Source: Arthrobacter dokdonellae
Lineage (GTDB): Bacteria; Actinomycetota; Actinomycetes; Actinomycetales; Micrococcaceae
Direction of reading: 5' to 3'
Length of the DNA stretch: 64,000 nucleotides
Assembly: GCF_003268655.1 (NCBI RefSeq)
Contig: NZ_CP029642.1
Coordinates: 3,596,001-3,660,000, forward strand
Shown here: positions 10,918-37,871 of the stretch, piece after piece
Layout: the number at the start of each line of letters is the position of its first letter
Position numbering within the stretch: the stretch's first letter is position 1
Notes under the pieces: generated by a model
Database searches by the model: none
Seen by the model: only the letters and a program-made list of their open reading frames with translations
Told to the model about the DNA's origin: nothing
Program-made: the position numbers and the translations under genes

Positions 10918-11271
10918 CAGAAGCCCGCCGTTTCAGCGGATGCGCTGCGGGGGGCGGCCGCCGTTTCAGCGGATGCGCTGCGGGGGGCGGCCGCCGGTGG
11001 AGGGTGGTCGGCGCCGGGAGCTGCACTGGTGCCGGCGCTCGGGCCGGAAGGCGTGGGCGTGGCGGCGTGGCGGGCTCTTGCATGGGGTTTGCCGGCTTGT
11101 GCAACGGTCGCTGCGGGTCGTCGGTGGACTCCCCGCGGACCGTTGCGCCGGCCCCTAGATTTACTTTCCATAGGTTTTTCAGTCTACATGAGCACCGGGC
11201 CCGCAGCCGGGCCCCCGGCTGCGGGCCGGGGGTGTTCCACCGCGCACGGTTCAGCTTCCCGGCAGCACGGT
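10918..11271. other. 354-bp gap without a convincing gene; tandem repeats at both ends
   Basis: Between the start of the CNNM pair and the end of the flavin reductase gene I see no plausible gene. Its first 80 bases hold a 33-bp tandem duplication and its last 30 bases the start of a 21-bp repeat. The middle has a short AT-rich patch near 11155-11185 that could hold the CNNM promoter, but I cannot place -35 and -10 boxes with confidence. Confidence 0.5.
10931..10996. repeat. Perfect 33-bp tandem duplication
   Basis: Two identical adjacent 33-bp units (10931-10963 and 10964-10996), each beginning TTTCAGCGGATGCGCTG, lie immediately upstream of the CNNM gene start. Identity suggests a recent duplication. 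It would lie in the promoter or leader of the CNNM operon. Confidence 0.85.
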
Positions 11272-11289
11272 TCAGCTTCCCGGCAGCAC
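11244..11289. repeat. 21-bp tandem repeat across the flavin reductase stop codon
   Basis: A 21-bp unit (GCACGGTTCAGCTTCCCGGC plus A) occurs at 11244-11264 and 11265-11285, with a few bases of a third copy. Each unit contains the reverse complement of a Val-Leu-Pro-Gly-Ser-stop stretch, so the duplication has copied the C-terminal codons and stop of the flavin reductase downstream of itself. Confidence 0.75.
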
Positions 11290-11826
11290 GGTGTGGCCGC
11301 CGAGACCGTGAAAGGCCCGCCGGTGGTAGACCATGGGATCACCCGGGGCCGGCGGGGCGATGATCTCCACCACGGAGGCTGCCACCAGCAGTGAACCGCC
11401 GGCGGGCGTGCGGCTGAGGACGCGGCACCGCAGGGCGTAGCCGGCGTGCCGCAGCAACGGCTCCCCGCTGGGCAACAGTGTCCAGTCCATTGAGCCGGTG
11501 AAGCGCTTGGTGGAGGGGTCTGCAAAGGCCCTGGCCAGGCCGAGGTCGCCGGCCGTGAGCAGGTGGACCACCAGGGAATCGGCGGCGGCAATCGCTGCCG
11601 CGGAGCCGGACATCTGGGCCAGGGAGAACGCGAGGATGGGCGGCTCGGCGGAAACGGAAGCCACCGACGACGCCGTGATTCCTACCGGTCCGGTGGCAGA
11701 GCCCGCGGTGATGACCGAAACCCCTGCCGGATATCCGCCAAACGCGGCCTTGAACCCCGCCACGTCCGAGGGGATGCCCCGGCCTGCAGCTTCCGGGGCC
11801 GTCCTGATGTCCGGCTGGGCCGTCAT
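11272..11826 (-). CDS. Flavin reductase-like FMN-binding protein
   Basis: 184 residues of the flavin reductase-like (split-barrel) family: FKAAFGGYPAGVSVITAG at the start, then GITASSVASVSAEPPILAFSL (flavin phosphate contacts) and DWTLLPSGEPLLRHAGYALRC. Members pass electrons from NAD(P)H to FMN/FAD, often for partner monooxygenases, but no monooxygenase lies nearby. The second ATG (MTAQPD) was chosen because GAGAGGAG lies six bases before it; the upstream ATG would add ten residues. A SoxR-type promoter lies 50 bp upstream, so redox-active compounds probably induce it. Confidence 0.85.
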   Translation of the reverse strand: MTAQPDIRTAPEAAGRGIPSDVAGFKAAFGGYPAGVSVITAGSATGPVGITASSVASVSAEPPILAFSLAQMSGSAAAIAAADSLVVHLLTAGDLGLARAFADPSTKRFTGSMDWTLLPSGEPLLRHAGYALRCRVLSRTPAGGSLLVAASVVEIIAPPAPGDPMVYHRRAFHGLGGHTVLPGS

Positions 11827-11875
11827 GCCGTGCTCCTCTCGCAATGCTCCCGCCAACGCGGCTGGGCCATGGTCC

Positions 11876-11906
11876 AGCCTAAAACCTCAACAAAGGTTGA
11901 GGTCAA
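11876..11906 (-). promoter_or_regulatory. SoxR-type promoter with 18-bp sox box in a 19-bp spacer
   Basis: On the minus strand a TTGACC -35 (11906-11901) and TAGGCT -10 (11881-11876) are separated by 19 bp, the overlong spacing typical of MerR-family targets. Inside lies CCTCAA-N6-TTGAGG (11885-11902), which matches the half-sites of the canonical sox box. The downstream gene is the flavin reductase, and soxR itself lies just upstream on the same strand. This is strong sequence evidence for SoxR activation. Confidence 0.85.
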
Positions 11907-11950: not shown

Positions 11951-12010
11951 GGATGCCGATATGGATATTTGAGGCCGCTATATCGGCCTCAAATATCCAT
12001 ATCGGCATCC
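11951..12010. repeat. Perfect 27-bp inverted repeat with 6-nt loop
   Basis: Arms 11951-11977 and 11984-12010 are exact reverse complements, and the loop is CTATAT. The arm centre is AT-rich (ATGGATATTTGAGG) in an otherwise GC-rich region. It lies between the soxR stop and the SoxR-controlled promoter, so it could terminate soxR transcripts. There is no T-run, and the length is far beyond an ordinary terminator. The 61-residue open frame that crosses it is a product of the palindrome. Confidence 0.9.
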
Positions 12011-12032: not shown

Positions 12033-12512
12033 TCAGCCGCCGGTCGGCGCGGCGGAATCGAACGCGCGGGCGCCGGGGCCGCCGCAGGCGCCTTCGTCCT
12101 CCGGGTTCACAAAGCCGCATTCGGCCAGCGACAGGCAGCCGCAACCAATGCATCCGCCCAGGCTGCCCCGCAACTGCTGCAGGGCCGCGATGCGGACGTC
12201 CAGTTCGCCGCGCCAGTGTTCGGACATCCGCTGCCAGTCATCCCGCGTGGGTACGGCGCCGGCCGGCAATTCGGCAAACGACTCGGCCACAAGGGCCAGT
12301 GGGATGCCGGCACGCTGGGCCGCCCGGATGACGGCCACGCGGCGCAGCACGGCCCGGGAATAGCGGCGCTGGTTGCCGGCCGTGCGCCCGCTGCTGATCA
12401 GCCCGCGGCGCTCGTAAAAATGCAGTGCTGACACGCTGGCGCCGCTTCGTTCCGCCAGCTGGCCCACGCTCAACTGTTCGCTGGCGTGCGACCCGCTGCC
12501 GCCGTCGTCCAT
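12033..12512 (-). CDS. soxR: SoxR, redox-sensitive MerR-family activator
   Basis: 159 residues. A MerR winged helix starts at residue 14 (LSVGQLAERSGASVSALHFY, then ERRGLI), followed by a dimerisation helix. The [2Fe-2S] cluster motif CIGCGCLSLAEC has cysteines at 121, 124, 126 and 132. Oxidation by redox-active compounds turns the bound protein into an activator. The start shown follows the usual SoxR length. No good Shine-Dalgarno is visible; the start codon lies in a quasi-repeat of TGGACG units. Its evident target is the adjacent flavin reductase. Confidence 0.93.
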   Translation of the reverse strand: MDDGGSGSHASEQLSVGQLAERSGASVSALHFYERRGLISSGRTAGNQRRYSRAVLRRVAVIRAAQRAGIPLALVAESFAELPAGAVPTRDDWQRMSEHWRGELDVRIAALQQLRGSLGGCIGCGCLSLAECGFVNPEDEGACGGPGARAFDSAAPTGG

Positions 12513-20313: not shown

Positions 20314-20337
20314 CCCTCCGCCCCCCGCCGCAACTGG

Positions 20338-20395
20338 CCCGCAATAGATGTCGAAAAACGCCTCGAAAGCGCGATTTTTCGACAACTATTGCGGG
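20338..20395. terminator. Long imperfect hairpin (21-bp arms) after the SGNH-like gene
   Basis: Arms 20338-20358 and 20375-20395 are complementary at 20 of 21 positions, with a 16-nt loop. The inner part is AT-rich (TGTCGAAAAA) and the right arm is followed by CTACTTTTATACTTT. Position and trailing Ts suggest a terminator for the upstream gene. The length and AT-rich core also resemble a dispersed palindromic element or a protein-binding site. Confidence 0.6.
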
Positions 20396-20509
20396 CTACT
20401 TTTATACTTTCGCGGCCGCCCGGGCCGTTCGGTTAGGTTCGTCGCCGCCCCCTATGGGAGACTAGAGGGCAGATCTCATTCGGATCATTGTGAAAGATTG
20501 GAGGCAGCT

Positions 20510-27302: not shown

Positions 27303-27415
27303 GGTCACGAGTGCCAGCGCTAAACCCCGGTTTGCTGGCCGGCAACCCTCCTTTCGCGGCGGGGTGCCCCGGGTGACGACCTGGCCGGGCCGGAGCGGTC
27401 TTGGCAAGCGCGGAC
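27303..27415 (+). ncRNA. SAM-IV riboswitch
   Basis: The stretch matches the SAM-IV consensus in order: GGTCACGAGTGCCAGCG, CCCCGGTTTGCTGGCCGGCA, ACCCTCC, a GCGGCGGGGTGCCCCGGG core and GTGACGACC closing the P1 helix, then the downstream pseudoknot element GGCAAGCGCGG at 27403-27413. SAM-IV is an actinobacterial S-adenosylmethionine sensor that normally switches genes off when SAM is plentiful. It lies about 60 bases before the class V aminotransferase start, and the methyltransferase behind it is probably included. Confidence 0.92.
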
Positions 27416-27472
27416 TTTTGACGTTCCCTGCGGCTTCGCCGGAGCGTCAGGTCCTTCCCAAGGGAGCCTCCC

Positions 27473-37254: not shown

Positions 37255-37507
37255 GCCGCTCCCGCCTCCCGCCCGTGACGGAGCCTTAACCCGGGGTGGG
37301 GGCTGCCGCGACATCGGGGTGATACAGATGCTGGTGATACCGATGCTACCGGCCGGGAGGCGGCCATGCAGCTTTTGCCAGGGCCGTCGGGCATGCAAGG
37401 CATCCTGAGAGTGGCCGCGGCCTGCTCAAGGCCGCAGGAGGCACCCCGGGAAAACAACAGGGCCCGTCCCCCGCCGCGATGGCGTGGAACGGGCCCCCAT
37501 AGGGATG

Positions 37508-37871
37508 TGGAGATGGGGAGAATTGAACTCCCGTCCGATGTTGCTTCATCAGGGCTTCTCCGGGTGCAGTTTGCGTCGGTTTTTCTCGGCCCCAGCTATC
37601 TCGCAAACAAGTAGCTGCCAGGCCCAGTTGCATAAGAGTCCCCTAAGTTCCTGCAACAAGAACTTAGAGCAGTGGCCCTCTAAATGACGCCAGGATCCGG
37701 GACGAGAGCATTCCCGGGCTGACGGACTGTCTTACTGCTTAGGCAGCAAGAGCGAAGTCAGTGCGATTTGAGTCAGCACTTATTGTTTTACAGAGATCGT
37801 TTACGAGATAACCCTGTATCCTCGACCCGCTTCACCTGTCTCGACAAACACCGTCGAAACCGATCATCCCC
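37508..37871 (-). ncRNA. ssrA: Transfer-messenger RNA (tmRNA)
   Basis: The 5' end GGGGATGATCGGTTTCGACG (37871 downward) pairs with CATCTCC at the 3' end (37515-37509), and the T-arm GGACGGGAGTTCAATTCTCC lies next to it. The tag reading frame at 37777-37739 gives ADSNRTDFALAA then TAA, the actinobacterial degradation tag. The CCA end is not encoded. tmRNA rescues stalled ribosomes with SmpB, whose gene is 2.3 kb upstream on the same strand. Confidence 0.97.

Follow-up and report, generated by a model that had tools for sequence, protein, structure and literature searches.

The stretch of DNA considered here (the window: 64,000 nucleotides of Arthrobacter dokdonellae, contig NZ_CP029642.1, positions 3,596,001 to 3,660,000) carries, in the gap between a soxR-like gene and a flavin reductase gene, a 60-bp palindrome that is quite probably a recent solo copy of a non-autonomous mobile palindrome. 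The other part of the two-part system to which it would belong is a gene for a protein with an AbiEi-antitoxin-like and a Vsr-nuclease-like half, here called AbiEi-Vsr. The features at the locus are the following.

11951..12010, no strand assigned: probable mobile palindrome of 60 bp, solo copy; family model R1 scores 85.9 bits on the + strand and 84.3 bits on the - strand
11951..11977, + strand: left arm of the palindrome, GGATGCCGATATGGATATTTGAGGCCG, exact reverse complement of the right arm
11984..12010, - strand: right arm of the palindrome, CGGCCTCAAATATCCATATCGGCATCC, exact reverse complement of the left arm
12033..12509, - strand: soxR-like MerR regulator gene (Pfam MerR_1 and MerR-DNA-bind), neighbour outside the element, with its stop 22 bp from the palindrome
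11272..11856, - strand: flavin reductase gene (Pfam Flavin_Reduct), neighbour outside the element
11885..11902, no strand assigned: sox-box-like site CCTCAACAAAGGTTGAGG (CCTCAAC-N4-GTTGAGG), neighbour outside the element, conserved in relatives

Written out, positions 11951-12010 read GGATGCCGATATGGATATTTGAGGCCG-CTATAT-CGGCCTCAAATATCCATATCGGCATCC, and an exact reverse-complement check confirmed the perfect 27-bp arms and the six-base loop (27 exact pairs, loop CTATAT) that an initial annotation of this DNA had described; scored without a loop, 97% of 30 pairs match. The gap to the sox-box-like site at 11885-11902 measures 48 bp and not 45 bp as given earlier. As single-stranded DNA, positions 11941-12020 fold at -35.6 kcal/mol (z -11.4), which was equalled by none of 200 shuffles, and for minus-strand RNA at the palindrome a fold of -54.5 (z -11.3) was obtained. 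A terminator scan found no T-run site at the palindrome, in agreement with the initial annotation, and an ordinary terminator was rejected for that reason. A known RNA family was also dismissed, since in an Rfam scan of the window no family rose above threshold at the palindrome, and in the window as a whole only tmRNA and SAM-IV did so. The SAM-IV riboswitch and the tmRNA lie at 27303-27416 and 37505-37871. Short tandem duplications can be seen by eye near the flavin reductase gene, at window positions 10920-11000 and 11245-11295.

The palindrome belongs to a dispersed family. With up to three mismatches, its arm occurs 11 times in its own genome, against 0 for a reversed control. A covariance model of the family (R1), built from 24 aligned copies, gave matches at E<=0.01 in 15 of 23 genus genomes, with 43 matches in the own genome (both strands counted, corresponding to 22 places), 34 in G004 (17 places), 28 in G019 (14 places) and at most 10 in every other genus genome; within the window, 11951-12010 is the single matching place. 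The search for copies in the genome and its relatives that the initial annotation had suggested thus points to a dispersed element. Among 68 copies, 62 are intergenic with both neighbours assigned. Weaker matches to the model (L225-L228, L234 and L235, in G002, G003, G021 and G017) include several palindromes with an A-run on one side and a T-run on the other (aaaTGA...TCAttt), an arrangement resembling that of two-way terminators, and three of these are nearly identical in different species.

The copy in the window is absent from relatives. In a Blast search of 58 genomes with the gap between soxR and flavin reductase, the family was detected in 3, which belong to a single genus and include the own genome. 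A flavin reductase was detected in 22 of the 23 genus genomes, and at 19 of 21 flavin reductase loci from other genomes soxR adjoins on the same strand; the window palindrome was found in none of these 19 gaps, in which a sox-box-like site is retained. One such gap contains a different palindrome (L109), and in another a further inverted repeat was noticed by eye (L104). As judged by these comparisons, the window copy is a young, recently inserted solo copy. The initial annotation had offered three readings, of which the mobile palindrome agrees with the dispersed copies and with the empty orthologous gap in 19/19 relatives with adjacent genes, whereas the ordinary terminator falls without a T-run. 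The third reading, cruciform control of the SoxR target, is not supported because relatives keep the sox-box-like site but not the palindrome, and the idea of a soxR regulatory element was abandoned on the same ground; the window copy shows no sign of such a role.

In the own genome, three members of the window family surround the gene for a 327-aa protein whose N-terminal half is AbiEi-antitoxin-like and whose C-terminal half resembles Vsr/I-Bth0305I nucleases; the protein shows both an AbiEi-like fold and a Vsr-type nuclease fold. The candidate active-site residues E212, D244, D257 and K261 are invariant in 19/19 sequences and E255 occurs in at least 90%. Comparison of the protein profile with solved sequences gave matches at chance level only. 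The gene is free-standing, between MurA-like and ABC transporter genes, and none of the three neighbour proteins at this own-genome locus (EPSP_synthase, which is the MurA-like one, Acyltransferase and ABC transporter) is an AbiEii toxin. Homologs occur in 23/23 genus genomes, and such proteins are currently named 'hypothetical', 'AbiEi family antitoxin domain-containing' or 'endonuclease domain-containing'. A search of phage records gave no match and one of plasmid records 5 distant matches. At L238 (2411-2769, G000) a homolog has shrunk to a C-terminal remnant beside its palindrome, and G004 has kept a longer AbiEi-Vsr gene at the matching place. A second palindrome family of the own genome (60-62 bp, GGCCCGCARTAGATGTCG...CGACAWCTAYTGCGGGC) has copies at window positions 20336-20397 and at L238 4444-4505, the latter adjoining this decayed AbiEi-Vsr region.

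Flanking of the gene by palindromes extends to many lineages, each with its own palindrome sequence of roughly 60 bp. This was established with the 80 best loci out of at least 559 relatives in named genomes, mostly Arthrobacter and kin, a palindrome being counted where at least 21 of 29 positions paired. Those centred no more than 300 bp from the gene numbered 68 in 47.2 kb (1.44 per kb), distributed over 53 of the 80 loci, with 24 upstream, 44 downstream and both sides occupied at 14 loci. Beyond 600 bp only 9 were found in 293.6 kb (0.031 per kb), and inside the homologous genes of the same set none in 71 kb. A control gene had a palindrome at 1 of 21 loci, and first-order random sequence yielded 0 in 240 kb. 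Scanning 20 more genus loci at 20 of 29 pairs gave a palindrome within 300 bp in 12, on both sides in 10; as one of these loci was seen twice, the count becomes 11 of 19. Loci L236 and L239 were taken as one locus because the last 5 kb of contig C1 of G000 duplicates the sequence at 13.3-18.4 kb, with 99.8% identity over 4.9 kb, probably as an untrimmed circular overlap; transposition of a whole cassette, considered in view of the seemingly identical cassettes near the C1 ends, was discarded in favour of this contig-end repeat. An even draw of 396 genomes across the phylum contained a homolog at E<=1e-20 in 35, and of the 29 loci read, 20 had a palindrome within 400 bp (30 palindromes), as compared to 2 palindromes beyond 600 bp in the 1.5-kb flanks.

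The palindrome also tracks the protein. Across the 53 loci, the more alike two proteins are, the more alike their palindromes tend to be (Mantel r 0.618 between the two identities, reached in 0/2000 permutations, kinship not corrected for). At 15 of the 30 genus loci L059-L088 a MurA-like gene is present in the fetched flank and the palindromes differ between species; therefore, on these sequences, gene and palindrome seem to change together in place. Dispersal was checked for five palindromes, namely the window family and those of L062, L066, L233 and L088. In its own genome, G003, the L062 palindrome occupies 15 full places, including the two that flank the gene; it has 12 places in G006, a few matches in five more genomes and none in the window's genome or in G019. 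That of L066 was located at five places in G001 and at another five in the closely related G022, with one match in G012 and none in 20 others. The search for that of L233 covered G008 and G009, where it has 12 and 9 places, respectively. The L088 palindrome occurs in 10 of 23 genomes and stands beside a homolog in G021, G012, G006 and G014.

Information on movement comes from G008 and G009, which share about 94-97% identity over most aligned stretches. At one orthologous site G009 is filled and G008 empty (TCC[60 bp]GGA versus TCCGGA); the distance between anchors differs by 61, of which one base is an indel elsewhere. A target duplication is not evident, and a 56-bp element bordered by a 4-bp CCGG duplication would give the identical picture. 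A copy located 2.7 kb away, present in both genomes, has the same right flank GGAGTGTTCGGTTCG and a similar left flank, which would fit a sequence-specific target and also gene conversion from that copy. In the G003/G006 family, flanks at 23 sites (including two gene-flanking ones and one overlapping partial match) are complementary at -1/+1, -2/+2 and -3/+3 in 74, 61 and 52%, respectively; the values for the own genome are 50, 82 and 50%, and G004 has no such trend. On these values, some families seem to prefer short palindromic targets. A second filled/empty candidate (L296 versus G009) was rejected, being filled in both with a corrupted centre in G009, and for the pair G001/G022 no filled/empty difference could be resolved from the listing. 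Two further observations concern the same genomes. At L291, L292 and L293 (G008 C11 and C74, G009 C139), the left flanks of two G008 palindromes, one of them inverted, meet in G009 with the palindrome as the junction, which is either an inversion between copies or a misassembly. At L303 (G009 C24) the sequence passes into runs of G and C midway through a palindrome whose G008 counterpart is intact, and failure of sequencing or assembly at the hairpin is likely.

In the system that we propose, one part would be the gene encoding the AbiEi-like DNA-binding half and the Vsr/homing-endonuclease-like half, and the other part the palindromes, which lie on both flanks of this gene and are dispersed through its genome. 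The AbiEi half would recognise the palindrome, the Vsr-like half would cut both the foot of the palindrome and a short target that is itself almost palindromic, and a copy would be inserted at the cut target, with no evident target duplication. The DNA acted upon may be a double strand, a cruciform or a single-strand hairpin, which at this stage is a guess. Solo copies would subsequently mostly decay. In this reading, the AbiEi-Vsr protein is the factor that probably spreads the palindromes.

A different explanation is that the palindromes are terminators or RNA hairpins selected at gene ends, the window copy serving soxR. The strong fold of the window RNA fits such a role, as does the setting of the 68 copies, for which crude gene calls give 28 convergent, 26 co-directional and 8 divergent gene gaps (5 are in genes and 1 is unassigned), but a T-run was not found and the window copy is missing in 19/19 relatives. 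How orthologous copies of the own family change is informative here. Over 520 pair positions in twenty comparisons, 373 were unchanged. At 35 both partners had changed without loss of pairing, at 98 only one partner had changed, and the remaining 14 differed in other ways, so one-sided changes outnumber compensated ones. Sixteen of the 35 compensated changes originate from a single convergent site (L041 4053, L053 3975, L203 2993), where the palindrome is perfect in three species and the arms differ at 5-6 pairs per comparison, with every change compensated. This favours a selected hairpin at that site; such pairing could result from selection, from correction of one arm by the other or from replacement by a different copy. 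The other orthologous copies mostly decay. GU pairs are not in excess of AC mismatches (15 versus 22 in co-directional, 17 versus 18 in convergent and 9 versus 7 in divergent settings), and there is consequently no sign of selection on RNA pairing, which was set aside as an explanation. We consider a terminator or hairpin function of the family unlikely.

It is also unlikely, to a similar degree, that the AbiEi-Vsr protein serves in regulation or defence, with the palindromes as its binding sites (operators of its own and other genes) and not a mobile substrate. AbiEi antitoxins are known DNA-binding autoregulators, and the palindromes adjoin the gene; however, they are found more often after than before it (44 versus 24), the positions of copies vary between species, one site is filled in one genome and empty in another, and gene ends are favoured over divergent gaps. 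Still less probable is movement of the palindromes in trans by an unrelated transposase, or by recombination, with the AbiEi-Vsr gene as a mere frequent neighbour. A precedent exists in repetitive extragenic palindromic (REP) sequences, whose movement in trans is attributed to RAYT transposases (PMC3733652, PMC8266576), and the G008/G009 palindromes at a rearrangement or misassembly joint would suit recombination. Against this, a search for the Y1 transposase, the one transposase family searched, gave 0 in the own genome and hits in 5 of 14 control genomes, and a chance neighbour would hardly be expected to have a lineage-specific palindrome that tracks its sequence. An assembly foldback, finally, is a hardly credible origin: artefactual long palindromes do occur and one relative has a corrupted palindrome centre, but the genome holds related copies at 21 places other than that in the window, several of them orthologous in other species.

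Several points weigh against movement of the palindromes by the AbiEi-Vsr protein. No palindrome at threshold was found at 27 of the 80 named-genome loci and 9 of the 29 phylum loci, and the Mantel test ignores common descent. The L062 family is common in G006 (12 places), where a different palindrome stands beside the closest homolog (the other G006 homologs were read in part), and G010 and G014 have ten R1 matches each with an intact close homolog absent among the homolog-search matches. One filled/empty site was resolved, at which gain is indistinguishable from loss, and the similar flanks of the copy 2.7 kb off allow gene conversion. The L041/L053/L203 site looks as if it is maintained by something else. 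Cutting and insertion of the palindrome by the protein are steps that we infer from sequence.

With somewhat less confidence than we place in the origin of the window copy, we think it likely that these palindromes represent a new class of bacterial mobile element, in which 60-bp palindromes are spread by an AbiEi-Vsr nuclease whose recognition shifts with the palindrome by lineage, as a non-homologous counterpart of REP/RAYT across Actinomycetota. To our knowledge, the proposed enzyme belongs to no known transposase family; in working logic the system is analogous to REP/RAYT. Among the matches listed in a search of open-access literature, palindromes paired with AbiEi, Vsr or DUF559 proteins are not described; an earlier account is possible, subscription papers being outside the scope. 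If the proposal is correct, bacteria reached a dedicated palindrome-seeding nuclease twice, with unrelated proteins. It would also provide a function for widespread proteins of the 'hypothetical' type and an origin for scattered actinobacterial palindromes, as well as many natural pairs of a nuclease and a changing DNA target, an association that is open to bench testing.

It is useful to compare the proposed system with known ones. AbiEi antitoxins of the AbiE type IV toxin-antitoxin systems share the AbiEi-like fold, whereas here a nuclease-like domain is fused, and at the own-genome locus a MurA-like enzyme and an ABC transporter are encoded alongside in place of an AbiEii toxin. The Vsr-type nuclease fold is shared with Vsr-like (EDxHD) homing endonucleases such as I-Bth0305I; unlike these, the own-genome gene stands outside any intron or intein and also encodes a fused AbiEi-like half, and the scattered element is a 60-bp palindrome without a gene. 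Miniature inverted-repeat transposable elements (MITEs) are likewise short and non-autonomous with inverted ends, but here the whole element is one palindrome, and target duplication is not evident at the one resolved site. The closest analogy is with REP/REPIN sequences and RAYT (TnpAREP) as described in the two papers cited above: short palindromes are scattered between genes (here at 22 places, and intergenic in 62 of 68 copies), a dedicated gene has the same palindromes on its flanks, the repeat changes along with the protein, and several families occur per genus. The palindromes described here differ in being 60 bp and near-perfect, as compared to 20-40 bp for REP, and in mostly lacking the unpaired end tag of REP (GTAG or CGTC): within the 8 bases outside the palindrome, GTAG occurred in 1 and CGTC in 4 of 53 copies. 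RAYT was rejected as the partner, as the Y1/HUH tyrosine transposase profile (PF01797) has 0 matches in the own genome; where RAYT is an HUH tyrosine transposase, the partner here is an AbiEi-Vsr fusion.
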